This document shows, piece after piece, positions 8,032 to 24,637 of a stretch of 64,000 nt of DNA. A model generated the notes under the pieces. It saw only the letters and a list, made by a program, of their open reading frames with translations, ran no database searches and was not told where the DNA came from. Both the position numbers and the translations under genes were made by a program. The DNA is from Streptomyces sp. NBC_00464 (GTDB lineage: Bacteria; Actinomycetota; Actinomycetes; Streptomycetales; Streptomycetaceae): positions 5,208,001 to 5,272,000 of the forward strand of contig NZ_CP107899.1 in the NCBI RefSeq assembly GCF_036013915.1, given 5' to 3'. Every line of letters starts with the position of its first letter. Position 1 is the first letter of the stretch.

Positions 8032-8032
8032 G

Positions 8033-11000
8033 TCAGTTGTCCCCCTGGGTGCGCAGCGATGTCGCCGGGTCGGCGCGGCGCAGCGTGAGGGCCGCGACGA
8101 TGAGCAGCGGCAGCGCCGCCACCCCGGCCAGCAGCGCGGCCACCTGTCCGGCCGGCAGCTGTACCAGCACCGGGGGCACCGGCTGGGCCGCCTGTCCGGT
8201 CAGCACGATCAGCGGCACGACGGCCCGGGTGAGGAGGGCTCCGAGCGCGGCCCCGACGAGCAGCCCGATCGTGATCAGTACGCCCTGTTCGGCGGCGGTC
8301 ATCCGGGCGAGCTGGCGGCGAGGGGTGCCCAGGGCCCGCAGTACGGCGAACTCGGCGGAACGCTCCCGCTGCGATCCGACCGCGGCCACGGCGAAGCCGA
8401 CCGCGGCCAGCGCGGCGGCGATGACCGCCACCGCGAGCAGCGCGGACTGCGGACCGGCCCCCAGCGGGTCGCTGATCAGGTCCTCGGCGACCTCGTCGCG
8501 CACCTGGACCTGTGCGGGGTCGGTGTCGGGCTGCTTGCGCAGCGCGGCCGCGACCTCGGCGGCCCGGCCCGGTTCGGTGCTCAGCCACCACTCGGTGGCG
8601 GTGAGCCGGGCGTTGGGGCGCTCGGCGAAGACCTGGGCCAGGGAGCGGAGGTCGAGAAGCAGGGCCCCGCCGTCCCGCGCCCGCTGCGATTCCCCGGTGG
8701 AGGCGGAGGAGCCCGAGCCGGGTCCGGTGGTCGGCAGCCGGTGCACGGTCCGCGCGATCCGCACCCGGACCGTCTCGCCGGCCAGGGTCACGTCGATGTC
8801 CTGCCCCTGCTTCGCCCCGGTCGCCTTCAGATAGGCGTCCGTGGCCACGGCGTTCAGGGCGGCCGGGGCCTTGGCGCGGGTCGCGGTGATCCGCACGTTG
8901 AGGGCCGGGACCGCCCACACCGCGTCCTCGGCCGTGACGGATCCCGTGGCGTTGTCGAGGCCCAGCGGGGTCGTGGCCGAGGCGGTCGGGTGGGCGGGCG
9001 CACCGGGCTCCACCTCACCGAACGCGTCGGCGGTCACCGCCGCCTCCCAGCGGAAGCCGTCCGGGACCGGGACCCGCTGTTCGGCGCCGCCCGTCCCGAC
9101 GGTCCGCAGGGCGCTCACGGCGAGCCGGTGCGATTCCCCGTGGCCGACGGGCTGCTTGCTGTCCAGCTCGATCCCGGTGAGGGCGAGCTCACCGGCGGCG
9201 GCCACGTCGACCGAGACCGGATGCGCCTTGCCGTCGACGGGCACGGAGCCCACGACCACCTGGTACGGGATGCCGTAGCGGTCCTCAAGACCCACGGTGA
9301 CCAGCGGCCCCATGCCGGACGGCGAGACCTTGCCGGGCGCGGTCACGGCGGAGATCCGTACGTCGAAGCGGAGCTGCGTGCTGTTCTTCGGCAGCAGCAG
9401 TCCGGCGCGGGCCGGCTTCGGCGGGGAGAGCGTGTCGAACAGCCCGTCCACGGACCCGTCGCCGAGGTCGTCGCGCATCAGCATCCGCTCGTCGGCGCGC
9501 GCGGTGTCCAGCGCCAGTACCTCTGCGGTGCGCTCGTCGGAGAGGTCCACCGATGCGCGGAAGGCGGGCGCCGCGTTCCGTACGCCCGGCAGCTTCGCGT
9601 ACGCACCCGATTTCGCCGGGTCCGCGCTGACCCCGCCCGTCATGCGCACCGACGCACCTGACCTGAAGTCGGCCTGGTCGCTCTGCGAACGGTTCCAGGA
9701 GGCGCTCTGCCCGATCGCCAGCATCCCCATCGCCACCGCGAGCACCAGCAGCAGCACCGGCCCGGCCCCGCGCAGGGGGCGGCGGCTGAACTGCCAGCCG
9801 GCCAGTGCCGTCGCCAGACCGCGGCCGCCCGCCGCCCGGCGTTCCGCGAGCCTCGCGGCGGGGGGCAGCAGACGCAGCGTCAGTACGGTGCCGGCGAGCA
9901 GGGCCAGCGCGGGCGCGGCCACCAGCAGCGGATCGATGCCGAGATCGCCCTGGCGGTCGCCGCTGAGCGCGCCGCCGCCCGAGCCCTTGGTCTGCCGGTC
10001 CAGCTGCCAGTACGCGACCGCCGCGATCACCAGCAGAGCGATGTCCGCGCCCGCCCGCACCGGCGCGGGCAGCGCGGCGGAACGGGTGGAGCGCCGCCCC
10101 CCGGCACTGGCGGCCAGCGCCGGGGCCACGACCGCGAGTGCGCAGGCCAGCGCGGTGACGGCCGCGATCAGCCACACCTGGCCGGTGACGCCTCCGTCGA
10201 GCCGCAGCCCGATCCGGGAGAGTTCGCTGCGGTCCGCCAGGAGCCGGGTGAGCGGTCCGGAGAGCAGCGGGGCGACGAGGGCGGCCGGCAGCGCCAGCAG
10301 CAGCGCCTCGACCGCGGCGAGCGAGGTGATCCGGGCGCGCGATCCGCCGCGCGCCCGCAGCAGCTCGGTCTCGCCGCCGCGCTCGCTGCTGAGCAGCCGT
10401 GCCACCAGCAGCAGGGCGTACCCGGCGAGCAGGACCAGCTGCACCGCCACGATCGTCAGCGTGGAGCGGGAGACCAGCAGGGCCCGGTCGATCTGGTCGA
10501 GAACGGTGGGCAGCGAGGTCTGCGCACTGGCCCCGTCCTTGAACTCCGCAACGGCGAGCAGGGCCTTCGGTCCCGTGGTCGCCGACTCGTGCAGCGCGGC
10601 CATCCGGTCCGTGGTGACGGTCCGGAAGTCGGCGGCGGCCAGCCAGGACATCTCGCCGGAACTGATCCGGCCGGAGCCGAGCACGGCCGGGTCGGTGAGC
10701 AGCGGACCGTACGTCGTGAAGACGACCTTGCGGATGCCGCGCCCCCCGAGCGCGTCCAGCTGCCAGTACGGATCGGACTGGTCCGCGGCCTTGTAGAGGC
10801 CGGTGACCAGGATCTGTACGGGCTTCCCGCCGAGCCGGTCGGTGAGCTTCAGCCGGGCTCCGGGCTTCAGCCCGAGGACGTCGGCGGCCGTGGTCGGGAG
10901 CGCGACCTGGACGGGGGCGCCGGCCCTGCCCGCGCCGGCGACCGGCGGGCGGCCCGCGGTGAGCCGGATCCGGCTGCGGTCCAGGGAGGCGAAGTGCGTG

Positions 11001-11356
11001 AGGTCGGGATCGCCGCGACGGGCGGCGGGGTCCTGAAGACTGCGCGGTAGCGCGTACGGCCCGGAGGACTCCAGCTTCCGTACGGTCACCGGGAGCCCGT
11101 CGAACGTGTCACGGGCGGCCTTGCGCGCGGACGCGTCGGCGGCGGCCCGCCGGTCCCGCTCCACCTGCGCGGATATGACGAGGGAGGCGGGCGCGGCGGA
11201 GCGGTGGGTCAGGGTGTGGCGCAGCGCGGCGTCACCGATGGATCCGGAGAAGGCGGTGAGGGCGGCCAGGACCGAGGTGGTCAGGAGGACGGCCAGGACG
11301 GCTGCGGCGAGAAGGAGCCGGTGGGCCCTTATCCGCAGAAAGACGAACCCCGTCAC
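8033..11356 (-). CDS. FtsX-like ABC transporter permease (1107 aa)
   Basis: First gene of a three-gene ABC operon. The N-terminus has a positively charged start and one helix (LLLAAAVLAVLLTTSVLAAL). A large outer domain follows, then several helices with the FtsX signature LLRARGGSRARITSL at about 340 and a second unit ending with EFAVLRALGTPRRQLARM and three further helices. The two permeases of this operon share the layout but differ clearly in sequence, so they probably form a heterodimer with the ATPase encoded at the end of the operon. Upstream lie about 160 bp of AT-richer DNA that must hold the promoter. Confidence 0.87.
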   Translation of the reverse strand: MTGFVFLRIRAHRLLLAAAVLAVLLTTSVLAALTAFSGSIGDAALRHTLTHRSAAPASLVISAQVERDRRAAADASARKAARDTFDGLPVTVRKLESSGPYALPRSLQDPAARRGDPDLTHFASLDRSRIRLTAGRPPVAGAGRAGAPVQVALPTTAADVLGLKPGARLKLTDRLGGKPVQILVTGLYKAADQSDPYWQLDALGGRGIRKVVFTTYGPLLTDPAVLGSGRISSGEMSWLAAADFRTVTTDRMAALHESATTGPKALLAVAEFKDGASAQTSLPTVLDQIDRALLVSRSTLTIVAVQLVLLAGYALLLVARLLSSERGGETELLRARGGSRARITSLAAVEALLLALPAALVAPLLSGPLTRLLADRSELSRIGLRLDGGVTGQVWLIAAVTALACALAVVAPALAASAGGRRSTRSAALPAPVRAGADIALLVIAAVAYWQLDRQTKGSGGGALSGDRQGDLGIDPLLVAAPALALLAGTVLTLRLLPPAARLAERRAAGGRGLATALAGWQFSRRPLRGAGPVLLLVLAVAMGMLAIGQSASWNRSQSDQADFRSGASVRMTGGVSADPAKSGAYAKLPGVRNAAPAFRASVDLSDERTAEVLALDTARADERMLMRDDLGDGSVDGLFDTLSPPKPARAGLLLPKNSTQLRFDVRISAVTAPGKVSPSGMGPLVTVGLEDRYGIPYQVVVGSVPVDGKAHPVSVDVAAAGELALTGIELDSKQPVGHGESHRLAVSALRTVGTGGAEQRVPVPDGFRWEAAVTADAFGEVEPGAPAHPTASATTPLGLDNATGSVTAEDAVWAVPALNVRITATRAKAPAALNAVATDAYLKATGAKQGQDIDVTLAGETVRVRIARTVHRLPTTGPGSGSSASTGESQRARDGGALLLDLRSLAQVFAERPNARLTATEWWLSTEPGRAAEVAAALRKQPDTDPAQVQVRDEVAEDLISDPLGAGPQSALLAVAVIAAALAAVGFAVAAVGSQRERSAEFAVLRALGTPRRQLARMTAAEQGVLITIGLLVGAALGALLTRAVVPLIVLTGQAAQPVPPVLVQLPAGQVAALLAGVAALPLLIVAALTLRRADPATSLRTQGDN

Positions 11357-11515: not shown

Positions 11516-11920
11516 TCAGCCCTCGGTGTTCACCATCGAGGCGGCCGCGTAGGTGAGGTAGTCCCACAGCTGCCGCTCGTGCTCCGGGGCCAGCCCCAGT
11601 TCGTCCAGCGCCACCCGCATATGGCTCAGCCAGGCGTCGTGCGCGGCACGGTCCACCCGGAACGGCGCGTGCCGCATCCGCAGCCGGGGATGTCCGCGCT
11701 CGTCGCTGTAGGTGCGGGGGCCGCCCCAGTACTGCATCAGGAACAGCGTGAACCGCTCCTCGGCCGGGCCCAGATCCTCCTCCGGGTACATCGGCCGCAG
11801 CAGCGGGTCCCCGGCCACGCCCTGGTAGAAACGGTGGACCAGGCGCCGGAAGGTCTCCTCGCCGCCGACCAGCTCGTAGAAGGTCTGCTCCTGCAGCGTG
11901 TCGCGCGGATTCTCAGTCAC
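11516..11920 (-). CDS. glbO: Group II truncated haemoglobin (GlbO/trHbO)
   Basis: A 134-residue 2-on-2 globin, a small cytoplasmic haem protein linked in actinobacteria to oxygen, NO or peroxide chemistry. The family-defining block FLMQYWGGPRTYSDERGHPR is almost identical to mycobacterial GlbO. It carries the distal Tyr/Trp region, and RMRHAPFRV contains the proximal His. The GTG at 11920 was chosen because it gives a terminus similar to other GlbO proteins; the frame upstream to 11953 contains no family sequence. It is transcribed on its own, toward the ABC operon. Confidence 0.93.
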   Translation of the reverse strand: MTENPRDTLQEQTFYELVGGEETFRRLVHRFYQGVAGDPLLRPMYPEEDLGPAEERFTLFLMQYWGGPRTYSDERGHPRLRMRHAPFRVDRAAHDAWLSHMRVALDELGLAPEHERQLWDYLTYAAASMVNTEG

Positions 11921-12014
11921 CCGTCCATGGTCGCAGACGCACCGGCCGGGCACGGCGGCCCGGGGCGCGGATCAGGCCATCCCTGCCCGCCGTGGGCCGG
12001 TGCGGCATGACGAA

Positions 12015-12053
12015 CGGCCGGTGAGGGGGTGATCATCACCCCCTCACCGGCCG
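12015..12053 (-). terminator. Terminator after the FHA gene
   Basis: A 39-nt perfect dyad starts CGGCCGGTGAGGGGGTGAT and is mirrored around a single central C. It lies 18 bp beyond the FHA-protein stop. It ends the signalling operon and may also serve the opposite strand. Confidence 0.85.
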
Positions 12054-12070: not shown

Positions 12071-13570
12071 TCAGTCCCGGCGGATCGTGATCGTCGTCCA
12101 CGCCCCGACGTGCACCTGGTCGCCGTCCTGGAGAGGTACGGGGACGTAGGGCTGGATCGGGTCCTCGGCGCCGTTGAGCGTGGTGCCGTTCGTCGAGTTC
12201 TGGTCGACGACGGCCCAGCTGCTGTCCGGCTGCTGCACCAGCACCGCGTGCTGGTGCGAGACGCCCGGGTCCTCCGGAGGCACGGACAGGTCGATGTCGG
12301 GGGACTCGCCCGTGCTGTGCCGGCGGCGGCCGATGGTGATCTGGTTGCCGATGAGCGGGAGTTGCTGCTCCGGGGAGTACGCCGGGAGGTTGAGCCCGGT
12401 GGCCTCGGGGCCGCTGCGCTGCATCATCGCCAGGAAGTACTCACGGTCGGGCGCGATGACCGCGGTCCAGTTCATGGACTGCGGAGGCTGACCCTGACCC
12501 TGACCGGGGCCCTGAGCCTGACCGGGGCCCTGACCCTGACCGGGGCCCTGAGCCTGGCCCGGTCCCTGGTCCTGGCCCGGATACGGCGGCTGCTGCATCG
12601 GCGCCTGCGGGCCCTGGGCCTGCGAGGGCGGGGACAGCAGCCAGTCGTCACCGCCGGTCAGGGGTCCCTGCGGCTGCGGCGGGGCCGGCGGTCCCGGCTG
12701 CTCGAAGACCGGGGGAGTCGTCTGCTGGAACGCGGGCGGTGCGCTCTGCTGCTGCTGGAACGGCGGGGGCGGGCCCTGCTGTCCCTGCTGCTGGAACGGA
12801 GGCGGCGGGCCCTGCTGCTGGAACGGGGGAGGCGGCGGACCCTGTTCCCCCTGCTGCTGGAAGGGCGGAGGCGGCGGACCCTGCTCCCCCTGCTGGAACG
12901 GCGGCGGGGGCGAGCCCTGAGGGGAGTTCTGCTGCTGGACGTGCTGCTGGCCCTGCGGGAAACCCTGCGGACCGCCCTGCTGTCCCTGCTGCTGGAACGG
13001 CGGCGGAGGCGGCGGGCCCTGGTGCTGGCCCTGCTGCTGTCCTTGCTGCTGGAACGGGTGAGGGGGCTGCTGACCCGGTCCCGGAGGGCCGGGCCGACCA
13101 GGCCCCGGACCGGACGAGAGCGGCTCGGCCGAGCGGTTCACCTGCGAGGGACGCGAGCTCTGGTACTCGAACGGATCGCGGGGCTCGCGCGGCTGCGGCG
13201 GGCCCGGCGGCTGCGCCTGGAAGCCCGGCGGCAGATTCAGACCAGGGACCGGACCGCCCGGACCACCCGGAACGCCGTGCTGCGGTGCCAGGGGTGTGTA
13301 CGACGTCGCGGTGTTCGTGAGGAAGTTCCAGCGGCATTCCTCGCAGTACGGAGCCATGGACTCCCGCGGGGTGCGGCACTGGGGGCAGAGCTCGGCCTGC
13401 TGGGTCGCGTCGGGGCCGGAGCCCTGCGGATATCCGTAGCCGGGCGCGGGTGGCGGGGGAGGCGGCGGGGGAACGGCGCCCGCAGGGGCGCCCGTCCCGG
13501 CCATGCGGTGGCCGCAGACCTCGCACCAGTCCTCGGAACCCGACTGGTGTCCGTTCGGGCAAGTCGGCAT
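12071..13570 (-). CDS. FHA-domain protein with paired N-terminal zinc ribbons and Pro/Gln-rich linker
   Basis: A 499-residue protein that should bind phosphothreonine peptides. Two zinc ribbons open it: CPNGH...CEVC (Cys4, 16, 19) and CPQC...CEEC (Cys62, 65, 76, 79). Residues of about 95-370 are low-complexity Pro/Gln/Gly, with repeated PPPPFQQQG and GPGQAQ units. The C-terminal ~105 residues are the FHA domain: ITIGRRRHS, VSHQHAVL and NSTNGTTLNG are the phosphothreonine-binding loops. It is the last gene of the pknG operon, so it may read PknG-dependent phosphorylation. It is not a GarA orthologue: no ETTV-type N-terminal phospho-motif is present. Confidence 0.9.
   Translation of the reverse strand: MPTCPNGHQSGSEDWCEVCGHRMAGTGAPAGAVPPPPPPPPAPGYGYPQGSGPDATQQAELCPQCRTPRESMAPYCEECRWNFLTNTATSYTPLAPQHGVPGGPGGPVPGLNLPPGFQAQPPGPPQPREPRDPFEYQSSRPSQVNRSAEPLSSGPGPGRPGPPGPGQQPPHPFQQQGQQQGQHQGPPPPPPFQQQGQQGGPQGFPQGQQHVQQQNSPQGSPPPPFQQGEQGPPPPPFQQQGEQGPPPPPFQQQGPPPPFQQQGQQGPPPPFQQQQSAPPAFQQTTPPVFEQPGPPAPPQPQGPLTGGDDWLLSPPSQAQGPQAPMQQPPYPGQDQGPGQAQGPGQGQGPGQAQGPGQGQGQPPQSMNWTAVIAPDREYFLAMMQRSGPEATGLNLPAYSPEQQLPLIGNQITIGRRRHSTGESPDIDLSVPPEDPGVSHQHAVLVQQPDSSWAVVDQNSTNGTTLNGAEDPIQPYVPVPLQDGDQVHVGAWTTITIRRD
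12500..12553. repeat. 18-bp tandem repeat, three units
   Basis: Three consecutive 18-nt units of the form CTGACCGGGGCCCTGAGC lie at 12500-12517, 12518-12535 and 12536-12553, differing at one position. On the minus strand they encode the hexapeptide repeat GPGQ(A/G)Q in the linker of the FHA protein. Unit number is likely to vary between strains. Confidence 0.85.
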
Positions 13571-13678
13571 GTCGGCGCTTCCCCCTCTCCTCGTCCGGCC
13601 CAGGGGGCCGTCATTTTCTCTTGCGTAGCCGCCCGGCGGACCTGGCCGGTCGGGCGGCTCATCAGCGCGGATATGTAG

Positions 13679-15031
13679 TTACTTCTTGACGCGAACCGTC
13701 TTCGTGGAGCGCGTTTCGAGTGTCATCTCGTCCGCATCCGCGACCTTCGCCTTCAGTCGCACAGTACCGGTCGCCGCGTCGACGACGTCTACCACCTTCG
13801 AAAGCAGTTTCGCAGTGTCCTCGTTCCCGGACGCCGATGCCAACTGCACCGCCCGGCCGAGTTTGGCCGTCGCGCCGTCGAAGTCTCCCGACTTGCGCGC
13901 ATCGAGCCCCTGCTGGATGACTTGTGCCAGTTCGGCCTGACCCGTGTAGTGCGCGACCTGCGGATTGATCGAGGTCGACGCCACCATGTCGTCCGTCCAC
14001 ACCGCCCGTACCAGACCCTGCGAGAGCGTCTGGGGCGTCCCGCCCGCAGGGTCGGGAAGGATCAGTGAGACGCGGGCCGCCAGCATCTCCTGCCCGATGC
14101 CGGCCTCCGGCACCTGCACGCACACGTGGTAGTCGCGGGACTCGTCGCCCCAGGAACCGGTGGGATAGTCGCCCGCCCGGGGGCCGGCCTCGGTGCGCCG
14201 GTCGGTCAGTTCGGCCACCGTCGGCGCGACCTGCTTCACGAACTTGATCTCCACGCCGACCGGGGTCCAGAGCCGCAGTGCGACGTCCGCGACCTCCTTG
14301 CCCATCGCGTTCTCCATCATCTGTGTGAAGTCCGCGGCCAGCCCCGACGGGTCGGCGACGATGTCGGCCGTGCCGAGCAGCGCGGAGGCGATCGCTGTGA
14401 CCTCTTTCACCTCCCAGTCGGTGCCCACCCCGCGGGCGTCACACGTGAACCGGCCCGCGCACGCGTCGAGCGCGGCCCGCAGATCCTCCGGGGCCTCGTG
14501 CTCGTTGCGCCCGTCCGTCAGCAGGATCCCGTGCCGGATCTCCACGTCGGCGGCGCCGAGCAGCCGGTCCGTCAGCCGCAGCCAGGTCCCGATCGCCGTA
14601 CCGCCGCCCGCGCTGAGCCGGCGCAGGGCCTCCTTCGCCTGGGCCCTGGTCTGCGCATCGGCGACGGCGAGCCGGCCGTTGCCCGGGTAGACCTCCTTGG
14701 CCACGTGCGTGCCGCCCACCACGGCGAAGGACGTGCCGTCGCGCAAGGTGTCGATGGCCGCCGCCGTCGCGTCGCGGGCGTTGCGCATCTTCGTCGGCGG
14801 GTAGTCCATCGAACCCGAGCAGTCCACCATGATCACCACGGCTGCCTTCGCCGTGCCGCCCGTCAGGTGCGAGGGCGGCGCACCCGTCAGCGGAACGCCG
14901 CCGGTGGTGCCGCCCCCGGTCGAGGTGACCGTGATGATGCCGTTGACCTCACGGCCGCCCTCGGGCAGATATTCGTTCTGATACACCTCGACGGAGAACT
15001 GCGGCACGTTCGACTTGGAGAAGTTGGCCAT
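13679..15031 (-). CDS. von Willebrand factor A domain protein
   Basis: A 450-residue cytoplasmic protein. The N-terminal ~60 residues (MANFSKSNVPQFSVEVYQNE) form a conserved beta-rich lead. The vWA domain (about 64-250) has a complete MIDAS: DCSGSM at 70-75 (DxSxS), a Thr in the RDGTSFAVVGG region, and LLTDGRNEHE. A C-terminal beta and helical part follows (PEAGIGQEMLAARV..., then a tetratricopeptide-like stretch around ARKSGDFDGATAKLGRAV). The ATG at 15031 has AAGGAG 8 nt upstream; the frame start at 15055 does not. Such proteins act as metal-dependent protein-binding adaptors and here sit between the phosphatase and the FHA protein. Confidence 0.9.
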   Translation of the reverse strand: MANFSKSNVPQFSVEVYQNEYLPEGGREVNGIITVTSTGGGTTGGVPLTGAPPSHLTGGTAKAAVVIMVDCSGSMDYPPTKMRNARDATAAAIDTLRDGTSFAVVGGTHVAKEVYPGNGRLAVADAQTRAQAKEALRRLSAGGGTAIGTWLRLTDRLLGAADVEIRHGILLTDGRNEHEAPEDLRAALDACAGRFTCDARGVGTDWEVKEVTAIASALLGTADIVADPSGLAADFTQMMENAMGKEVADVALRLWTPVGVEIKFVKQVAPTVAELTDRRTEAGPRAGDYPTGSWGDESRDYHVCVQVPEAGIGQEMLAARVSLILPDPAGGTPQTLSQGLVRAVWTDDMVASTSINPQVAHYTGQAELAQVIQQGLDARKSGDFDGATAKLGRAVQLASASGNEDTAKLLSKVVDVVDAATGTVRLKAKVADADEMTLETRSTKTVRVKK

Positions 15032-15120
15032 CTGATCGGCTCCTTGAGGCTCCATGTGTCAGATGAAGACAGAGTTACGGACAAAGGCATCGGAGGTGCA
15101 CGGGGCGGACGGAACGGGAC

Positions 15121-16458
15121 TCACCCGCTGCTGTAGGCGGATCCTGCCCCTTGAGGTGCCACGGCGAACGGCACCAGTGCCACTGTTACGTTGTCGTGGC
15201 CCCCGCCGTCCAGGGCGTGACCCACCAGCACCTGGGCTCCGTGCAGCGGCCGTTCGTACGCGTCCTCGGGCACCGCGGCGGCCATGTCGGCCGCGGACTC
15301 CGCGTAGTTCCACAGGCCGTCCGTGCAGACCACCACGAGTCCCGGCCGGTCCGGCTTGAACGACGCGGTGTGCGGCTCCAGTTCGTAGGCGTCCGCGCCG
15401 AGCCAGCCCGTGATGGCGTGGGCGCGCTCGTCCGCGTACGCCTCCGCCTCGTTCATCAGACCGGCCGCGACCATCTGCGCGGCCCAGGAGTCGTCCTCGG
15501 TGAGCCGGGCCGGCGGACTGCTCCGGTCCTCGGGCACCCAGTACACGCGGCTGTCACCGACCCAGCCGACGACCAGCAGGCCGCTCGCCATGATCGCGCC
15601 GACCAGGGTGCACGCCGGGGCGTTCTGGTGGCGGTGCGGATCCTGCTCCTGGCCCTGACCGGGGTCCTGCGCCAGCAGGTTGACCGACTCGCCGGCGGCG
15701 ACGATCGCCTCGTGCATCGCCTGCTGCGGATGCGTGCCACGCGGCAGCGACTCCAGCAGCGCCTCGTTGGCGGCGTACGCGGCAGCGGCCGAGGCCTCGT
15801 CGGGCCGGCTGGCCGACGACACCCCGTCGCAGACGATCGCGACGACGGCCGGGGAGCCGTCAGGCAACGCGGTCGTCGACACCGCGAAGGAGTCCTCGTT
15901 GCGGTGATGACGCAGCCCGCGGTCACTGACGGCGGCGACCGACTCCAGCTCCTGCTCCATGTGGTCGCGCTCGCGCGGCTGGGCGTGGCCGCAGTTCTCG
16001 CAGTAGCCGTCGTTGTCGACCCGGCCGGCCCGGCAGGCCACACACACCTTGGTGCCGGCCGACGGGGTCAGTGCGGGGTCGGGGGAGGTACGGGGATCGG
16101 GCGCCGCCCCCGCGGCCACGGGCGCGGCCAGCTCGAAGTCCCCCGACGCGGCGGGGCCGTCGAAACCGACCTCCGGCGCGGCGGCGGGCGGCGGCGGGGC
16201 CGAATGCTCCGCCCCCGGGGCGGAGCCGGGCACCCGCCCGGGGCCGGGCTCCGCCGCCCCGGGGGCCGGCCCGAAGCCGGCACCCGGCGCGGTCCGCCCG
16301 GCAGGGGTGGTGATGGCGATCGTCGGATGGTCCTGCGGCGGCTCGGGCACGGCCGACAGGTCGTATCCGCACGCGCCGCAGAACAGGTCCCCCGGCTCCA
16401 GCGGCTCCGCGCAGCCGGGACACCTCGACAAGGCAGTTTCCTGGTGGTTCTGCGACAT
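15121..16458 (-). CDS. PP2C-family Ser/Thr protein phosphatase with two zinc ribbons
   Basis: A 445-residue protein. Zinc ribbon 1 (CPGC...CGAC, Cys13/16/27/30) opens the protein. A Pro/Ala/Gly linker follows, then zinc ribbon 2 (CVAC...CENC) directly before the PP2C domain. Catalytic metal-binding motifs are present: SDRGLRHHRNEDSF, IVCDGVSS, GWVGDSRVYWV, VVCTDGLWN and GGHDNVTVALV. It should reverse PknG phosphorylation. The ATG at 16458 lies 2 bp after the pknG stop. A GTG at 16464 that overlaps that stop (GTGA) is equally possible. Either way the phosphatase is translated together with the kinase. Confidence 0.92.
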   Translation of the reverse strand: MSQNHQETALSRCPGCAEPLEPGDLFCGACGYDLSAVPEPPQDHPTIAITTPAGRTAPGAGFGPAPGAAEPGPGRVPGSAPGAEHSAPPPPAAAPEVGFDGPAASGDFELAAPVAAGAAPDPRTSPDPALTPSAGTKVCVACRAGRVDNDGYCENCGHAQPRERDHMEQELESVAAVSDRGLRHHRNEDSFAVSTTALPDGSPAVVAIVCDGVSSASRPDEASAAAAYAANEALLESLPRGTHPQQAMHEAIVAAGESVNLLAQDPGQGQEQDPHRHQNAPACTLVGAIMASGLLVVGWVGDSRVYWVPEDRSSPPARLTEDDSWAAQMVAAGLMNEAEAYADERAHAITGWLGADAYELEPHTASFKPDRPGLVVVCTDGLWNYAESAADMAAAVPEDAYERPLHGAQVLVGHALDGGGHDNVTVALVPFAVAPQGAGSAYSSG

Positions 16459-16460
16459 GT

Positions 16461-19283
16461 TCACACCCACGTTCGGGGGCGGAAACGGTTGGCCCGCTCC
16501 ACCAGTTCGATCCTCTCGTCACCGGGCTCCGCAAGCCGGGCGAGCATCCGGTACGACCGCTCCAGCCCGAAACGCAGGCCGCGCTCGTCCAACTCACTGC
16601 CGAGCAGCGTCCTCGGACCCTGCGCCCCGGCGTGCGGGGGCGACTTCGGGTCCGAGGGGCGAGCCGTGGGACTACCGGAGAGTACCCAGTCGAGGGCCGT
16701 CCCCAGCACCTCGGTCGACAACTGCTCCCGGCGCACCGCGTCCAGACCGAGCCCGGCCAGCCCCGAGACCTGGGCCGACGCCGCCATCAGATCGGTGATC
16801 AGCGGCTCGTCCGGGGCCCGTTCCCGCAGCCGGGCCCGCACCGCGGCGACCCGGGCCGCTGTGAAGTGGATCGACGCCTCCGGCACCGACTCCAGGGTCC
16901 TGACGGCACCGCCCCGGTCCCCGGCCGCGAGCTGCACCCGGGCCAGGCCGAACGCCGCGCTCACGAAGCTCGGGTCGGTCATCCACACCAGCCGGTAGTA
17001 CTCGGCGGCGTTGTCCAGCTGGCCCAGGACCTCCGCGCAGATGCCCAGAGCCAGCTTCGGCGCGGGCTCCCCGGGAAACGCGTCGTAGACCGCGTCGAAC
17101 GACAGCGCCGCGTTCTCCTTGTCGCCGGCCACCAGGGAGGTGAGCCCGCGATACCAGACCACCCGCCAGTCGTCCGCGTGCTGCGCCTCCAGCGAGGCCA
17201 GGGTTCTGGTCGCGCCGCCGAGGTCGTTCATCTCCAGGGCGGCGCGCAGCTCGCGCAGCCGCGTCTCCAGCGAGGCGGCCGGCACGGCCTGCAGTGCGGC
17301 AATCAGTTCGGCGGGCGCCGATGCCATCACCCCGGCGAGGAAACCCGCGTTGGGGTCACTCGCGTCGACCCGGGGGACCGGCAGCGCGAGCGAGGTCCCG
17401 CGCACATCGAGCCCGGCCAGCCGGGGGCCGTTCGCGCTGTACGGCCCCGGCACGGGTCCCGGACTCGCGACCGGGACCCGGGGAGCCGGAATGGCCGCCT
17501 GGGACTGCGCGTACGGAACGGGGGCGCCGTTCCCCTCGCCGCCCGGGGCGCCGCCTCGGACGTGGGTGGTCGTGGAGGGCAGCGGTCCGGCCCCCGCGGC
17601 GAACCCGGGAGGCGGGCCGGCCGGCAGGGCGCCCGGCATGCCGCCGGGCGGTGCCACCGCGGCCGGCGGGGAGACGGGCGGGGCCACCGGCGCCCCGCCG
17701 CGCCGCCGGCCGAAGAGCCCGGACCGGCCCGGCGCCGGCGACCTGGCCCCCAGGCGCGAGACCTCACCGGTCTGGAGGGTGAAGAGCTCCGTGTCGGTGA
17801 CCCGCAGCTCCGCACCGAACAGCGTCGACAGAGCCGGGCGCGGGCGCCCCGTCTGCAACGACACCACCTCGCGCAGCACCCCCGTCAGCTGCTCCGCCAT
17901 CTCCGAGGCGGAGGCGAACCGCCGCGCCGGATCGGGATCGGTCGCCCGCACCAGCAGCCGGTAGAACGACTCGTAGGTCCGGAACACCTCGATGTTGTCC
18001 GGGTCCGGCAGCGAGTCCACGAAGACGTTCGTATAGCCCTGGAAGTCGAAGGTGAGCACCGCGAGCGTCCGCGCGACCGTGTACAGGTCGGAAGCCACCG
18101 AAGGACCCACCTCCGCGACCTCCGGCGCCTGGTAACCCACCGTGCCGTAGATGGCCGACTCCTCGTCGTCCATCCTGCGGACCGCACCCATGTCGATCAG
18201 CTTCAGCTGGTCCTCGGTCTGGATCGCGTTGTCGACCTTGAAGTCGCAGTACAGCAGGTTGCGGCTGTGCAGATGCCCCAACGCCTCCAGCGCCTCGATG
18301 CCGAACGCGCACGCCTGCTCGACCGGCAGCGGATCCCGCTTCCCGGACGGGGTGCGGCGATCGTTGGCGATCTCCTTGAGCGCCTTGCCGCCGACGTACT
18401 CCATGACGATGTAGCCGTCGAGGGAGCCGGTCCGCTGGTCGAGGTGCTCGACGAAGTTGTAGATCCGGACGATGTTGGAGTGCTCGATCTCGGCGAGGAA
18501 CCGGCGCTCCGAGATGGCCGCCGCCATGGCGTCCTGGTCACCGGTGTCGAGCAGACCCTTGAGCACCACCCACCGGTCGGAGACCGCCCGGTCCACCGCG
18601 AGGTAGACCCAGCCGAGCCCGCCGTGCGCCAGACAGCCCGCGACCTCGTACTGCCCGTGGACGATGTCGCCCCCCTGGAGCTTGGGCACGAAGGAGTACG
18701 GGTGGCCGCACTTGGTGCAGAACCCCTCCGTACGCCCCGTCCGCTCGCCCCTGGACCGGCCCACCGGCGCCCCGCAGTCCGAACGCGAACAGAACCGCTT
18801 GCGCTCCGGCACCTCCGGGTTCTCCATCACCGCGGTACGCGGATCGGGGCGCGGCACGTCCGGTACGAGCACCAGCCCGGCCCCCAGCCGGTTGCGGCCC
18901 GAGGAACCGGTCGACCTGGCCGAGGAACGCACCGAGACCGAAGGCGAGGTGGCATTGCCCGACAGCGCGCGCGAAAGCCGCCCCGACACCGAGCGCCGCG
19001 AGGTCGACGAGCGTGAGGACGACCGCGAGGACGCCCTCGACGACGCCTGCGAACTGCTGCGGGACGAGGAGTTGTTGCTGCCCCTGCTGCTCCGGCCACC
19101 GCCCGCGATACCCGTGGCCGGCGAACTCACCATGCCATCCCCGAGTTCTCGGCTTCGCTCGAACAGGGGAGACCCCATTGGTGACACGACCGGCGCCAGA
19201 CCGCAGGTGTCGCAGTACAGCTCACCGCTGCCCATGTCCTCGTAACTGCCCTCGCACGCGGGGCGCTGGCACTGCGTACTCAT
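16461..19283 (-). CDS. pknG: Serine/threonine protein kinase PknG
   Basis: A 940-residue soluble kinase. Order: zinc ribbon (Cys5, 10, 24, 27); Ser/Arg-rich tract (about 64-130); second, rubredoxin-like ribbon (Cys165, 170, 189, 192); kinase domain from about 211, with AHGGLGWVYLA as glycine loop, Lys242 in VVLKGL, the non-RD catalytic loop CDFKVDN (Asp347) and DMG in place of DFG (Asp364); a Pro/Ala linker; and a C-terminal TPR-like helical region. This is the mycobacterial PknG architecture, longer because of the extra N-terminal ribbon and linker. In mycobacteria PknG controls glutamate metabolism through GarA. The ATG at 19283 has AGGGGG at good distance; another ATG at 19289 is too close to it. 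Confidence 0.93.
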   Translation of the reverse strand: MSTQCQRPACEGSYEDMGSGELYCDTCGLAPVVSPMGSPLFERSRELGDGMVSSPATGIAGGGRSSRGSNNSSSRSSSQASSRASSRSSSRSSTSRRSVSGRLSRALSGNATSPSVSVRSSARSTGSSGRNRLGAGLVLVPDVPRPDPRTAVMENPEVPERKRFCSRSDCGAPVGRSRGERTGRTEGFCTKCGHPYSFVPKLQGGDIVHGQYEVAGCLAHGGLGWVYLAVDRAVSDRWVVLKGLLDTGDQDAMAAAISERRFLAEIEHSNIVRIYNFVEHLDQRTGSLDGYIVMEYVGGKALKEIANDRRTPSGKRDPLPVEQACAFGIEALEALGHLHSRNLLYCDFKVDNAIQTEDQLKLIDMGAVRRMDDEESAIYGTVGYQAPEVAEVGPSVASDLYTVARTLAVLTFDFQGYTNVFVDSLPDPDNIEVFRTYESFYRLLVRATDPDPARRFASASEMAEQLTGVLREVVSLQTGRPRPALSTLFGAELRVTDTELFTLQTGEVSRLGARSPAPGRSGLFGRRRGGAPVAPPVSPPAAVAPPGGMPGALPAGPPPGFAAGAGPLPSTTTHVRGGAPGGEGNGAPVPYAQSQAAIPAPRVPVASPGPVPGPYSANGPRLAGLDVRGTSLALPVPRVDASDPNAGFLAGVMASAPAELIAALQAVPAASLETRLRELRAALEMNDLGGATRTLASLEAQHADDWRVVWYRGLTSLVAGDKENAALSFDAVYDAFPGEPAPKLALGICAEVLGQLDNAAEYYRLVWMTDPSFVSAAFGLARVQLAAGDRGGAVRTLESVPEASIHFTAARVAAVRARLRERAPDEPLITDLMAASAQVSGLAGLGLDAVRREQLSTEVLGTALDWVLSGSPTARPSDPKSPPHAGAQGPRTLLGSELDERGLRFGLERSYRMLARLAEPGDERIELVERANRFRPRTWV

Positions 19284-19377
19284 GGTCATTCCCCCTGTTC
19301 GCCCCGCCGCCGCGGCGGCCACGATGCTCCGTCACTACTCGTCCCGCACACCCTGTGCCCCAAGAACCCCGGACGTT

Positions 19378-20709
19378 TCATGGGCGCCCCCGCCGGTCCT
19401 CGGGGCCGGACGGCCCGCGCCCGGCCAGCATGTCCAGCGCAGCGTCCTGATAGCGCTGCACCGTCAGCGCGGCGACCCGCAGATCGCACGGCGCGCTCCA
19501 CAGCATCCGGCGGGCCGCGTCGTAACGCTCGATGAGGACCGGATCCTCCGCCAGGCCGTGCCGGGCCACCTTCGCCTTGTACGCGTCGAGCCGGCCGCGC
19601 AGCTCCGCCCGGACCGCCAGCGGAGCCGTGACCGCGGTCAACTGCTCCCGGGCCCGCAGCAACTCCTCGCCCGCCTGCTCCTCCAGGGACTCCAGGAGCG
19701 GTGAGAGCCGGTGCCACTGCGCATGCCTGCGGTACTCCGACGCCGTGGCCAGACGCTCCTGGAGCGCCGTCGGCGGACCGTTGACCACGGGCACCTCGGA
19801 CGCGGCGATCTTCGCGAGCACCTCGCCGCGCGCCGACCTGGCCTCGGCCAGCGTGCGGTCGGCCCGGGACAGGACATCGCGCAGTTGGACGAGGCGCTGC
19901 TCGGCGTCCTGCCGGACCGCGAGGACGGCCTCGACCTCCCGCCGTACCTCGTCCAGCGCCCGCGCCGCACGGTCGTAGCGCGTCGTGTCCGGACGGCCGC
20001 CGCCCGGCGCCGAACTGCCGGGCCCCGGCAGCCAGAACGCCAGCGGGTCGGAGATCACCTGCACCCGCAGCGTGGTCAGCTCCTGGACGATCGCCTCCAG
20101 ATCGTCACCCGCCGGGTGCTCCCCGGGCCGAACGCCGACCGAGTGCGCCAGCGAGTGGGTGCGGCGCAGTTCGGCGGCGAGCAGATCTATCCGGGCGGGC
20201 ATCGCCGACCACACGGAGTCGGAGGCGACGACCATGTCGAGCGAGCGCGCGTACAGCTCGTTCATCCGCTGGACCAGTTCCTCCAGCGAGAAGTGCTGCG
20301 AGAGCCGGGCCGGGCCGGTGACCGACGGATCGTGGGCGGCGGCGTGCGCCACCGTGACCCCCTGGCCACGCAGCAGTTCGGTGAGGGCCACCAGGTCCTC
20401 GCGGTTGGGCTGACGACGCCGGGCCCGCACCTCGCGCGCCCGGTTCAGGGCTCCCGCGTACGCGTCGAAGTAGGTCCACAGCAGGGTGATCGACTGCTCG
20501 GTGGTGCTCCAGCGCTCCTTGGTGACACCGGTGAGGTCGGCGCCCTCCAGCAGCCGGCGCCCGGCGTGGTCCTGCAGGGCGAGGAGCGAGGTCTCGATCG
20601 CCTCGTGCTCCGCACCGAGCCGGGCCAGCGCTCGGTCGGCCTCGTCCCGGTCCATGACCGGGCCGGGGGGCCGGGCCGCGTAGCTGGGGAAGGGGCCCGC
20701 GACGCCCAT
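19378..20709 (-). CDS. Coiled-coil protein of the pknG-glnH operon
   Basis: A 443-residue soluble, almost wholly helical protein with no domain I can name. Heptad-like stretches occur at about 15-45, 85-115 and 245-350 (for example RAARALDEVRREVEAVLAVR and VQLRDVLSRADRTLAEARSA). The middle segment (NELYARSLDMVVASDSVWSAM) resembles a four-helix bundle. The N-terminus is Pro-rich, with no signal peptide. The start at 20709 is preceded by GGAGAGG. It sits between glnH and pknG in the same orientation, so it may physically link membrane sensing to the kinase; this is inference from position only. Confidence 0.8.
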   Translation of the reverse strand: MGVAGPFPSYAARPPGPVMDRDEADRALARLGAEHEAIETSLLALQDHAGRRLLEGADLTGVTKERWSTTEQSITLLWTYFDAYAGALNRAREVRARRRQPNREDLVALTELLRGQGVTVAHAAAHDPSVTGPARLSQHFSLEELVQRMNELYARSLDMVVASDSVWSAMPARIDLLAAELRRTHSLAHSVGVRPGEHPAGDDLEAIVQELTTLRVQVISDPLAFWLPGPGSSAPGGGRPDTTRYDRAARALDEVRREVEAVLAVRQDAEQRLVQLRDVLSRADRTLAEARSARGEVLAKIAASEVPVVNGPPTALQERLATASEYRRHAQWHRLSPLLESLEEQAGEELLRAREQLTAVTAPLAVRAELRGRLDAYKAKVARHGLAEDPVLIERYDAARRMLWSAPCDLRVAALTVQRYQDAALDMLAGRGPSGPEDRRGRP

Positions 20710-20809
20710 CGATCACCTCTCCGCTCTTGCTGCCGGGCGGGGGCCCGGCAGGATCAGTGCTGTCGACCGCCGGCCGGTCGTCAGTTGCTCGCCGGCCGGG
20801 AACCAGGTC

Positions 20810-21907
20810 CTAGTTCCGGTACTTGGGCGCCGGCGGCGCCGATATCCCGGGCAGGCCGTCCTTCAGCCACTTTCGGTACGACTGCATCCAGGGGCTGCTG
20901 TCGCCACCGGCGCGGTAGCCGACCAGCACCTTGTTGACCCGGGACACCAGGTCGTCCGCGCCCTTCTTCGTGGCCACGCCGTAGTACTCGGTGGTGAAGG
21001 GGGCGCCCTTGAGCTCCACGGCCGGGTCCTGGGCGGCCTGGCCGGCCGCGAGGGCGTTGTCCGTGACGACCGCGTCGACCTCACCCATCTGGAGCCGCAC
21101 CAGGCAGTCCAGCTGGTTGGGGACGGTGAGCTTGTCCTCGTCGGCCGCGGTGCCGTCGTGCTCGTCCTTGAACACGGAGCCGAACGACTCCTTCTCCAGC
21201 GCCTCGTACGCGGTGGAGCCCTCGGCGGTACAGACCCGCTTGCCGGCCAGTGAGGAGTTGAAGCCGGTGATCGCGTCATCCTCCGCGGGGTCGGCCTTCG
21301 GGTCCGCCTTCGGTGCGAGGACCTGCTGACCGGCCTGGAAGTAGGCCGTGGAGAACGACACCTGGTCCAGCCGGGCGCAGTTGATCGTCATCGTCCGGAC
21401 GACGACGTCGACCTTGTCGTTCTCCAGCGCGGCGATGCGCTGGTTGGTGGGGATCGCCCGGAAGATCACCTTGTCCGGGCTGCCGAGGATGTCCTCGGCG
21501 ACGGCCCGCACCAGGTCGATGTCGAAGCCTTCGAGATTGCCGGACTCCGGGTTGCGGAAGCCCCACTGGAAGCTGTTCTGGTCGACGCCGGCGATCAGCT
21601 TGCCGCGCTCCTTGATCCGCTTGATCGCGTCGCCCTCCGCCAGGCCGGGCAGCAGGCTGGCCTCCGGGTCCGTGCAGTCGTCGGCCCGCGTCTGAACGGC
21701 GTGAGTCGTCCCGGTCCCCGCGTCCTTCGCGTCGAAGGCGCCCCGGCCGCCGTGGGAGAGCGGCAGCAGGGTCAGCGATGCCGTCACCGCGCAGGCCGCG
21801 GCCATGGCGGTCACCCCGCCCCAGCCGCGCAGCCGGTTCAGCCGGCCCCCGCGGGCCGTCCCCGGGCCCGTCCTCGGGTCCTTCGCTGTCATCGCTCCCC
21901 CTGTCAC
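20810..21907 (-). CDS. glnH: GlnH-like amino-acid binding protein (SBP family 3)
   Basis: A 365-residue extracytoplasmic binding protein. The N-terminus (to about 55) carries basic residues and a hydrophobic segment (TAMAAACAVTASLTLLPL). The Cys inside it is followed by further hydrophobic residues, so it is not a clear lipobox; the protein may stay membrane-tethered. The rest is a type-3 solute-binding fold: LIAGVDQNSFQWGFRNP, GFDIDLVRAVAEDI, VDVVVRTMTINCARL, GKRVCTAEGSTAYE, GEVDAVVTDN. The GTG at 21907 overlaps the glnX stop (GTGA); an ATG at 21892 is an alternative. No transport permease is adjacent, which supports a sensing role with GlnX. Confidence 0.9.
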   Translation of the reverse strand: MTGGAMTAKDPRTGPGTARGGRLNRLRGWGGVTAMAAACAVTASLTLLPLSHGGRGAFDAKDAGTGTTHAVQTRADDCTDPEASLLPGLAEGDAIKRIKERGKLIAGVDQNSFQWGFRNPESGNLEGFDIDLVRAVAEDILGSPDKVIFRAIPTNQRIAALENDKVDVVVRTMTINCARLDQVSFSTAYFQAGQQVLAPKADPKADPAEDDAITGFNSSLAGKRVCTAEGSTAYEALEKESFGSVFKDEHDGTAADEDKLTVPNQLDCLVRLQMGEVDAVVTDNALAAGQAAQDPAVELKGAPFTTEYYGVATKKGADDLVSRVNKVLVGYRAGGDSSPWMQSYRKWLKDGLPGISAPPAPKYRN

Positions 21908-23307
21908 CGGAACTCCGAGAGCCTGCGGTTGACCCCGACGATCGCCGCCACCGCGCCCAGCACCGCGAGGGCCGCGGCGCCGATCGGCAGTCCGCCCAGG
22001 GCCCCGCGCCCGTCCTCGGCGGCCCGGGTGAATTCACTCTGCTCGTGGGCGAGCGCCTTGCGCAGCGCTTCGTCCACCCGGCTGAAGGACTGACCCGTCG
22101 AGTTCTTCGACCCGATGATCTGCTCCAGCGCGGTGTCGTAGTCGCCGGCGTCGTCGGTCTTGCGGGCGGTCCGGTGGCGGCCCTGCCACTCGGTCACAGC
22201 CTTGACGGCATCCGCCACCGGCTTGCCGCCCTCGGCGTCGTCGGTGTCGGCGGCGAGCTTCGCGGCCGTGCTCAGCTCTTCGCCGAGTGCCTTCATGCTC
22301 GTGCCGTAGTCGGTCTCGTACTTGTCGTTCTTGCCGTCCGCCGTGAGCACCGCGCCGCGGGCGACCACGGTGAGGTTCTCGCTGGAGCGCGCCTTCAGCG
22401 AGTCGATGCGCGCCCGGTTGAGCACGTCCAGGGACTGCTGCCCGTGCGTGTTGGCCTCGGCCAGATCGGACCTGGCCACCGTGTGCCCCACCGCCAGCCA
22501 CAGCAGCACCACGGTCGCCGCCGCGGTTGCCGCGAGCAGACCCTGGTTGAACACCCGGTTCGTCCTGCGGTAATTGCGCCGCTGTGCCCAGAACAGCACG
22601 GCCAGCGCGATGACACCGATGCCGAGGGAGAAGAACGGCCATGTCCGGGCGGAGTGGTAGTCCTGGTCGAGCCGGTCCGTCTCCGCCGTGTAGAGCCGCT
22701 CGGCGGCCGGCAGCAGCTCGTTGGACATCTTCTGGTTCGCGTACCGGAGGTAGGCGCCGCCCAGCGGCAGCCCCTGCCGGTTGCTGGCGCGGGCGCGCTC
22801 GATCAGCCCGGTGTAGCGCGGGAGTTCCTTGTTGAGCGTGGTGATCTCGTGGCCGGACGTCGTCGACGCGTCCGTGTTGGCCGCGGCCCTCACCAGCAGC
22901 CGGGAGGCGTCGTCGATGTCCTTCACATACTGGTCGTGGACCGCCTTCGGCTCCTGCGGTCCGGCCAGGAAGCCGCTCGCGGCCGCCGCGTCCGCATCGG
23001 CCAGCGAGCGGTAGATGCCCGCCGCGTCCGCGCTGAGCGGCTGACTGCGCTCCACCACGTCGTTCGCAGCCGCCGCGCGGTCGCTGATCTCGAACGCCGT
23101 CACCGCCCCGAACGCGACGACGAGCAGCGCCAGCACGGCTCCGATGATCTGGAGCCGGCCCGGCTCGGTGGTCGCCGCGGCGCGAAGCCGTTCGGTCACC
23201 AGGGCCCGGACGCTGTGCGGCGGCGGCGCGGGCACGGCCGCCGTCGGCGCAGGCTGCTGCTCCGGCGCGTGCTGCGGCGCCGGGCGTACATTCGGCGGGT
23301 ATGTCAC
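21904..23307 (-). CDS. glnX: GlnX-like membrane sensor protein
   Basis: A 467-residue membrane protein with four predicted helices (about 53-73, 223-241, 255-274, 439-458). A Pro/Ala-rich cytoplasmic N-terminus precedes two long helical extracytoplasmic domains (75-220 and 276-436), each like half of a chemoreceptor sensor bundle. The two halves look like an internal duplication. In mycobacteria GlnX is encoded with GlnH and PknG and relays external amino acids to the kinase. The GTG at 23307 has GGGGGAGG 4 nt upstream; the frame extension to 23481 is not coding. It is the first gene of the seven-gene operon. Confidence 0.87.
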   Translation of the reverse strand: MTYPPNVRPAPQHAPEQQPAPTAAVPAPPPHSVRALVTERLRAAATTEPGRLQIIGAVLALLVVAFGAVTAFEISDRAAAANDVVERSQPLSADAAGIYRSLADADAAAASGFLAGPQEPKAVHDQYVKDIDDASRLLVRAAANTDASTTSGHEITTLNKELPRYTGLIERARASNRQGLPLGGAYLRYANQKMSNELLPAAERLYTAETDRLDQDYHSARTWPFFSLGIGVIALAVLFWAQRRNYRRTNRVFNQGLLAATAAATVVLLWLAVGHTVARSDLAEANTHGQQSLDVLNRARIDSLKARSSENLTVVARGAVLTADGKNDKYETDYGTSMKALGEELSTAAKLAADTDDAEGGKPVADAVKAVTEWQGRHRTARKTDDAGDYDTALEQIIGSKNSTGQSFSRVDEALRKALAHEQSEFTRAAEDGRGALGGLPIGAAALAVLGAVAAIVGVNRRLSEFR

Positions 23308-23668: not shown

Positions 23669-24637
23669 TCAGACGTACTGCGCCCGCAGCCTGGCGTGCA
23701 CCTCCGGCGCCGCGCCCGTGTGGTCCAGGCCCAGCAGCCCGGCACCCAGCACCGGGGACTCCTGCACCACCCGCACCACCGCCTTGGGGGCGCGCAGGGC
23801 GAGGAGTTCGGTGATCCGGTCGTCCAACTGCGGGTGGCGGGCCGCCAGCACGCTGCCGCCCAGCAGCACCGGTGCCACCTCGTCGAGCAGACCGAGCCGG
23901 GACAGCGCGACCGCGGACAGCGCCACGACCTCATCGGCCAGCCGGTCCACGAGCCCGCGCGCCACCGCGTCGCCGGACGCGGCGGTCGCGAACAGCACCG
24001 GCGACAGCTCGTGCCGCCGCCCGGACTCGATCCGGCCCAGATGCAGCGCCTCGATCAGTGCGTACATCGATGCGAGCCCGAAGTGCGCGGGCAGCGTACG
24101 GGCCAGCTCGGTCGGTTCACCGCGGCCGTCCTCGGCGCGCGCGGCGAACCACATCGCCTCCTCGGAGAGCCCCGAACCGCCGCCCCAGTCACCGGAGATC
24201 CGGCCGATGGCGGGAAAGCGCGCGGTCCGCCCGTCCGGCACCATGCCGACACAGTTGATCCCCGCACCGCACACGACGGCCACTCCGCGCGGCTCGTCGA
24301 TCCCGGCGCGCAGGATCGCGAAGGTGTCGTTGCGCACCTCCACCGTGCGACCCCAGCCACGGGCGCGCAGGGCCTCGCCCAACTGCGCCTCCTCGACCGG
24401 AAGATCGGCGTTGGCGAGACACGCGGACACATGGGCGACGGAACCGGCGCCCGCACCGGCCGAGGCCAGCACCTGGTCCACCGCGGCGCCGAGCACATCC
24501 ACGGCCGTGTCTGTACCGACCACCGGCGGCTGGAAGCCGCCGCCGCGGGACGTGGACAGCACGGTGCCGTCCTCACCGATGAGTGCCACATCGGTCTTGC
24601 TGTTCCCCGCGTCTATCGCGAGGACGGAACCGTTCAC
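23669..24637 (-). CDS. BadF/BadG/BcrA/BcrD-type ATPase, probable N-acetylglucosamine or sugar kinase
   Basis: A 322-residue member of the ASKHA ATPase superfamily, branch BadF, which includes N-acetylglucosamine kinases. The phosphate-1 motif is LAIDAGNSKTDVAL at the very N-terminus; phosphate-2/adenosine motifs are VVCGAGINCVGM and the later APVLLGGSVLAARH. The glycine-rich ISGDWGGGSGLSEEAMW is typical of sugar-kinase-like members. The GTG at 24637 overlaps the GH4 stop (GTGA); a GTG two codons earlier (24643) is possible. As last gene of the ABC/GH4 operon it probably phosphorylates the imported sugar or its cleavage product. The exact sugar is unknown. Confidence 0.85.
   Translation of the reverse strand: MNGSVLAIDAGNSKTDVALIGEDGTVLSTSRGGGFQPPVVGTDTAVDVLGAAVDQVLASAGAGAGSVAHVSACLANADLPVEEAQLGEALRARGWGRTVEVRNDTFAILRAGIDEPRGVAVVCGAGINCVGMVPDGRTARFPAIGRISGDWGGGSGLSEEAMWFAARAEDGRGEPTELARTLPAHFGLASMYALIEALHLGRIESGRRHELSPVLFATAASGDAVARGLVDRLADEVVALSAVALSRLGLLDEVAPVLLGGSVLAARHPQLDDRITELLALRAPKAVVRVVQESPVLGAGLLGLDHTGAAPEVHARLRAQYV

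Follow-up and report, generated by a model that had tools for sequence, protein, structure and literature searches.

Signalling through GlnH, GlnX, PknG and GarA/OdhI is established in mycobacteria and corynebacteria, according to the part of the literature available to us. The accessible part of PMC6069109 reports conservation of the operon arrangement within Actinomycetales, and of the sensor and effector proteins within Actinobacteria including Streptomyces, and the PknG literature examined, as far as its accessible text goes, deals with a three-gene setting. Here we analysed a 64,000-nucleotide (nt) stretch of Streptomyces sp. NBC_00464 (GCF_036013915.1, NZ_CP107899.1, 5,208,001–5,272,000; hereafter the window, whose positions are used below), in which glnX, glnH and pknG belong to a minus-strand run of seven genes (12071–23307) in the transcription order glnX, glnH, cc (for a putative coiled-coil protein), pknG, PP2C, VWA and FHA. 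Our overall interpretation, which we consider reasonably probable, is that this operon encodes a conserved amino-acid-sensing Ser/Thr phosphorylation unit, with the seven-gene set being the older form and the three-gene operon a paralogous, reduced copy.

Conservation of the seven-gene set was assessed in 296 genomes sampled across the class, 112 of which have GlnX matches (86 over the cut-off). A 'phylum' sample contained few close relatives (GlnX in 35/296 genomes, 18 over the cut-off), so the class sample was used instead. Beyond the window, stretches around GlnX were read in 79 of the 111 other genomes (80 + 20 stretches, some from one genome), and locus order was sorted by stop codon in 101 sources, including several second stretches of the same genome. 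The exact seven-gene order was found in 38 of the 101. In six more (L025, L037, L054, L061, L066 and L067) all seven families are present, with frames that are split or an additional glnH. Within the genus of the source strain, 24 of 28 genomes carry the complete, ordered set, pknG being split over two frames in one case (L025); the exceptions are two cuts at contig ends (L020, L035), one locus with several broken genes (L037) and one genome with neither GlnX nor VWA_3_C (G547). In L037 (genome G423) the operon has decayed, with glnX, glnH, pknG and vwa in fragments; this decay and the absence in G547 are probably natural losses. Of 80 named loci, 63 likewise show the exact order, with Nocardia, Mycolicibacterium and Saccharothrix represented; the 80 were the best fetched by the VWA profile and, being drawn by VWA similarity, give no measure of operon frequency. 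Nine of the other 17 lie on stretches shorter than 19 kb, and the remainder are rearranged, split or missing a gene. An earlier note on this DNA had proposed such a survey across actinobacteria, and the order it had pointed to is indeed recovered, in both sets more often than chance would give. A seven-gene operon was also seen on a contig labelled as a Solirubrobacteraceae metagenome-assembled genome (L153), where transfer or binning error is possible.

The relationship between the two forms was examined in trees. A PknG tree of 52 sequences unites the three-gene loci of Mycobacteriales in a single clade (support 1.00) and joins it (0.96) to the seven-gene loci from Nocardia, Mycobacterium and Mycolicibacterium; a GlnX tree of 43 sequences gives 0.98 for the three-gene clade and 0.99 for its join to the Mycobacteriales seven-gene clade. 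Both forms occur in the same genomes. All 15 Mycobacterium, Mycolicibacterium and Nocardia genomes with a seven-gene locus that were tested have at least two PknG_TPR matches, and 14 of them have a separate three-gene glnX-glnH-pknG locus, counting one (G567) in which the contig stops just 3′ of pknG. In the fifteenth (G577) there is a lone pknG in the stretch read, with the remaining PknG_TPR matches outside it. Lone pknG genes with no glnX or glnH matches nearby were found in six Nocardia stretches (L231, L234 and L239–L242), and reduced loci apart from the Mycobacteriales three-gene clade are L069, L097 and, in part, L059. The simplest reading is that the operon was duplicated in early Mycobacteriales and that one copy then lost four genes. 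Because of the trees and the distribution taken together, the widespread seven-gene form is likely the older one and the mycobacterial three-gene operon likely a pared-down paralogue. The direction implied by the earlier note, which had called the seven-gene operon 'extended', is therefore reversed.

The gene set also survives rearrangement. In family f84 the order is cc-pknG-pp2c-vwa-fha-glnX-glnH, with glnX-glnH at the end. Nine of the 15 f84 genomes with an upstream stretch read hold all seven genes (in G355 vwa and cc score weakly), two are without vwa (G467, G459), three have no cc match (G502, G520, G401) and one has pknG-glnX-glnH only (G485); G393 (pknG-pp2c-glnX-glnH) and G326 (cut) stand outside these 15. 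The same order was found in Actinomadura (L166) and, up to glnX, in Kutzneria (L141), and at L139 glnH and glnX lie on the opposite strand. That gene content outlasts reordering is an argument for a shared function. The VWA_3_C domain points the same way: it was detected in 71 of the 296 class genomes, and 67 of these also have GlnX (Fisher p 6e-31, with no correction for relatedness or shared ancestry); it was seen in 0/14 control genomes. Four genomes have VWA_3_C without GlnX (G310, G378, G402 and G422), the last three as weak matches. The source genome has a single VWA_3_C match, the operon VWA protein, and some f85 genomes have additional copies away from the GlnX match. Conservation of order, survival under rearrangement and the VWA_3_C–GlnX association all support one functional unit.

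The predicted sensor proteins are recognisable homologues of those described. GlnX (21904–23307, 467 amino acids (aa)), a membrane signal transducer, scores above the cut-off of the NCBIfam subfamily NF058618 (480 bits versus 250) and below that of the narrower equivalog NF041460 (181 bits versus 780). The top PDB match of GlnH (20810–21907, 365 aa), an extracytoplasmic amino-acid-binding protein (SBP_bac_3, 83 bits), is Mycobacterium tuberculosis GlnH (6h1u, E 7e-46), for which the accessible part of PMC6069109 lists R147, T162 and W232 as ligand side-chain contacts. The operon GlnH has the same residues at R147, T162, R169 and D250, and carries K161→Arg, S164→Thr and W232→Gln. The position of W232 is Trp in 12/13 three-gene and 24/25 seven-gene Mycobacteriales sequences, Gln in 25/26 sequences of the source genus and 32/36 further named ones (mostly Streptomyces), and Tyr in 14/14 f84 sequences. 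Judged from these residues, an acidic ligand remains plausible, and affinity may differ. Among nine GlnH N-termini inspected by eye, those from the source genus have Cys in AAAC, AAGC, AGVC or TAAC contexts (none in L029), and those of Nocardia L121 and L042 have SGC and GGC; none of the five examined from the source genus has a classic lipobox.

The kinase and the phosphatase retain their active-site residues, and the reader has an FHA domain. PknG (16461–19322, 953 aa) comprises a zinc-ribbon-like N-terminal motif, a Ser/Arg-rich linker and rubredoxin, kinase and TPR domains, with all Pfam matches over cut-off (PknG_rubred 113 bits, Pkinase 86, PknG_TPR 289) and PDB 2pzi matched at E 2e-164. 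An alignment of 123 sequences shows at least 95% conservation of its VVLK Lys, of the catalytic Asp, Lys and Asn, and of the LID.G Asp. The N-terminal Cys motif, read in the sequence as C18–C40 (19203–19271), was detected by pattern in 25/26 PknG sequences of the source genus, 8/12 of f84, 3/10 of f85 and 0/13 of the three-gene mycobacterial loci; within the source genus, an N-terminal Cys motif by pattern also occurs in PP2C (24/24) and in the FHA protein (18/24). The phosphatase PP2C (15121–16470, likely start ATG at 16458; PP2C_2, 49 bits) has N-terminal zinc ribbons, one matching Zn_Ribbon_1 (25.3 bits, cut-off 25) and a second Cys motif seen by eye, and its DG, DG and GGxDN active-site motifs, which we take to be metal ligands, are kept at 93% or more across 117 aligned sequences. 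The FHA protein (12071–13570, 499 aa) consists of two N-terminal Cys motifs, zinc-ribbon-like by eye and without a Pfam match, a Pro/Gln/Gly linker and a C-terminal FHA domain (56 bits, residues 411–489) whose core pattern fits 128/147 sequences. These Pfam and NCBIfam matches bear out the gene identities and the kinase–phosphatase–phospho-reader logic of the earlier note.

Two further proteins complete the set. The VWA protein (13679–15055, 458 aa; an internal ATG near 15031 looks the likelier start) combines VWA_3 with VWA_3_C (82.9 bits), and its metal-site pattern fits 137/143 sequences. Its C-terminal tail, DEMTLETRSTKTVRVKK (13679–13732), is a candidate phospho-site by tail comparison: it is identical in 19/24 tails of the source genus (broken L037 left out), and the S-T-K/R-T stretch is conserved, a loose pattern fitting 118/128 distinct tails. 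The idea that the tail copies the GarA ETTS site (ETRST versus ETTST in this genome) was weakened, the first Thr being present by pattern in 90/128 distinct tails. The cc protein (19378–20709, 443 aa) is conserved and takes its putative coiled-coil name from annotations, two of its best 120 relatives being so labelled; no Pfam or NCBIfam model matches it at E ≤ 0.01. Scoring of 7994 candidates gave 2635 relatives, and the organism-named ones among the best 120 are all Streptomyces, at up to 97% identity.

With regard to output, the earlier note had held that the FHA protein is not GarA-like, and we agree: it scores 18.9 bits against the GarA/OdhI model (cut-off 200) and has no ETTS in its sequence. 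A GarA-type protein, at C1:6860679 in the same genome, falls narrowly short of that cut-off (189.9 bits), carries the ETTS motif (reading ETTST) and is encoded next to a frame that by eye resembles a MerR-type regulator; over the FHA part it aligns with the operon FHA protein at 31% identity. GarA/OdhI-type matches were found in 285/296 class genomes at E ≤ 1e-25 (31/296 over the cut-off; motif checked in this genome only), including all 28 of the source genus. The 'different output' of the earlier note is left unsupported by these matches; with an ETTS-bearing GarA-type protein in the same genome, the classic output can therefore coexist with the operon. The presence of a reader in the operon itself and the coexisting operon types in Mycobacteriales suggest a separate output. 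From sequence, the operon is most likely an amino-acid-gated writer/eraser/reader unit that would feed GarA, its own FHA/VWA branch, or both.

What the sequences show is gene content, conservation, association, tree placement and the retention of catalytic motifs; every interaction and substrate within the operon we infer, as follows. Extracytoplasmic GlnH would bind an amino acid, probably an acidic one, GlnX would relay the signal through the membrane, and PknG would be activated via its TPR domain. PknG as writer, PP2C as eraser and the FHA protein as reader, all with N-terminal zinc-ribbon-like motifs, probably co-assemble, with the VWA and putative coiled-coil proteins serving as a possible scaffold or adaptor. 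Probable PknG targets are Thr residues of its own partners, the VWA tail being a candidate. FHA domains prefer phosphothreonine (pThr); the phosphorylated product would be bound by the FHA protein and reset by PP2C, and GarA would be a likely second PknG substrate. More tentatively, and against the odds as we see them, PknG may originally have been the kinase of a closed PknG/PP2C/FHA/VWA/coiled-coil complex, gated by extracellular amino acids and with an output of its own; its mycobacterial role on GarA would then be that of a duplicated, stripped copy, and some Mycobacteriales would run both.

Two explanations differ from ours in where the signal goes. The earlier note's proposal of a self-contained switch whose output has nothing to do with GarA, which we regard as possible and on balance unlikely, draws on the operon's own phosphatase and reader, the un-GarA-like FHA protein, the side-by-side presence of the two operon types in Mycobacteriales and the altered GlnH pocket, with Gln in place of Trp232; against it, the operon has no obvious target gene, and the same genome encodes the ETTS-bearing GarA-type protein. 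That protein, with its score just below the cut-off, and the near-ubiquity of GarA/OdhI-type matches, together with the operon arrangement and sensor/effector conservation reported in the accessible part of PMC6069109, speak instead for the classic GlnH–GlnX–PknG–GarA pathway alone, in which PP2C would be a GarA phosphatase, the FHA protein a competitor or docking aid, and the VWA and putative coiled-coil proteins mere helpers of GarA switching. We find this somewhat more doubtful still: GarA-type matches are much wider than GlnX (285 versus 112 of 296), so that GarA is independent of the seven-gene operon, and Mycobacteriales with a three-gene pknG locus retain a separate seven-gene copy, which suggests a second job.

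The third explanation concerns history: the three-gene form would be ancestral and the four other genes added later. Poor support at the deep root of the PknG tree (0.10–0.27) leaves it some room and, because of this weak root, our claim of ancestry rests mainly on distribution. In the trees, all three-gene loci except L069 fall into a single nested Mycobacteriales clade. The seven-gene form is spread over many other families and was also seen on the contig labelled Solirubrobacteraceae, and reduced loci elsewhere (L069, L097) likewise resemble losses; together these points make late addition very improbable. Besides the weak root, several observations weigh against an ancient, seven-gene phosphorylation unit. 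VWA_3_C is missing from 45 of the 112 GlnX genomes; a Nocardia alni locus (L126) has glnX, glnH, cc, PP2C, VWA and FHA with no pknG match between cc and PP2C, and L147 lacks a glnH match. The Cys motifs are patterns, with just one PP2C ribbon over the Pfam cut-off, and the FHA core pattern is missed by 19/147 sequences, the five misses printed all being Nocardia with GK in place of GR. Many loci have Ala, Val, Ile or Ser in place of the first Thr in the VWA tail, and the PknG N-terminus is Ser-rich, at odds with the pThr preference of FHA domains. Finally, gaps of 55–108 nt leave room for internal promoters within the operon.

We nevertheless favour the older, seven-gene phosphorylation unit. 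Should the seven-gene set prove to be the parent, the models in the PknG literature examined miss four partners, namely a likely phosphatase, a phospho-reader, a VWA protein and a putative coiled-coil protein, and PknG signal reset and further PknG targets in antibiotic producers become testable in harmless Streptomyces. PkaF/SCO2110, a possible S. coelicolor counterpart, was not confirmed, and we make no claim for it; no S. coelicolor locus tags were found.

The layout of the run agrees with the seven same-strand genes with overlaps or short gaps described in the earlier note. From glnX to FHA the intergenic distances are −4, 100, 55, −10, 65 and 108 nt, and the pknG–PP2C gap, counted from the sequence, becomes 2 nt if PP2C begins at the ATG at 16458, in line with the value of about 2 bp in the earlier note. 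The strong terminator reported there corresponds to a terminator-like hairpin 3′ of the FHA gene (12015–12053, minus strand), a perfect inverted repeat with 19-nt arms and 1 nt between them (−50 kcal/mol, z −7.7). It is without a T-run and was missed by a consensus promoter/terminator scan (2 sites found versus 2.8 expected), which also gave no promoter-like site. A second candidate hairpin between vwa and fha (13627–13659) folds no better than shuffles (z 0.46) and was dropped. On the 5′ side, the nearest gene, 361 nt from glnX, encodes a BadF/BadG-type ATPase and is overlapped by a glycosyl hydrolase family 4 gene (23669–25899 for the pair), both on the strand of the operon. Directly 3′ of the hairpin lies a same-strand bacterial-like globin gene (11516–11953), and 5218–11356 is taken up by two large open frames on the minus strand, which have FtsX-like permease domains.

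Among titles and abstract openings in the literature, with few subscription papers covered, none dealt with PP2C, VWA and FHA genes in an operon with PknG. A kinase, a PP2C and a standalone vWA do occur in GAP1-N2 neighbourhoods, which belong to GTPase-centred conflict systems (eLife 2020, PMC7159879, in its accessible part). Unlike these, the seven operon genes include no recognised GTPase or effector, and PknG is not mentioned in the accessible text of PMC7159879. Closer to home, the same genome has a second PknG-like locus (C1:1695544–1701781; L011:7545–13782), in which a trypsin-like protease is followed by a PknG-like kinase with TPR and a weak rubredoxin match, by a VWA protein whose C terminus matches a zinc ribbon weakly, and by a weak GlnX-like protein. 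It shares with the operon the TPR-bearing kinase, the VWA protein and the weak GlnX-like component, but matches to glnH, PP2C, FHA and cc are absent from the 19 kb read, VWA_3_C is absent as well, and its protease precedes the kinase. The known systems closest to the operon also include the GlnH–GlnX–PknG–GarA/OdhI pathway of mycobacteria and Corynebacterium glutamicum, with which it shares homologous GlnX, GlnH and PknG (rubredoxin, kinase and TPR) in the same relative order and a GarA-type protein in the genome. Unlike in that pathway, cc, PP2C, VWA and FHA genes are part of the operon, PknG has an additional N-terminal Cys motif and Ser/Arg linker, and GlnH has Gln for Trp232 and, in the five N-termini of the source genus, no classic lipobox.

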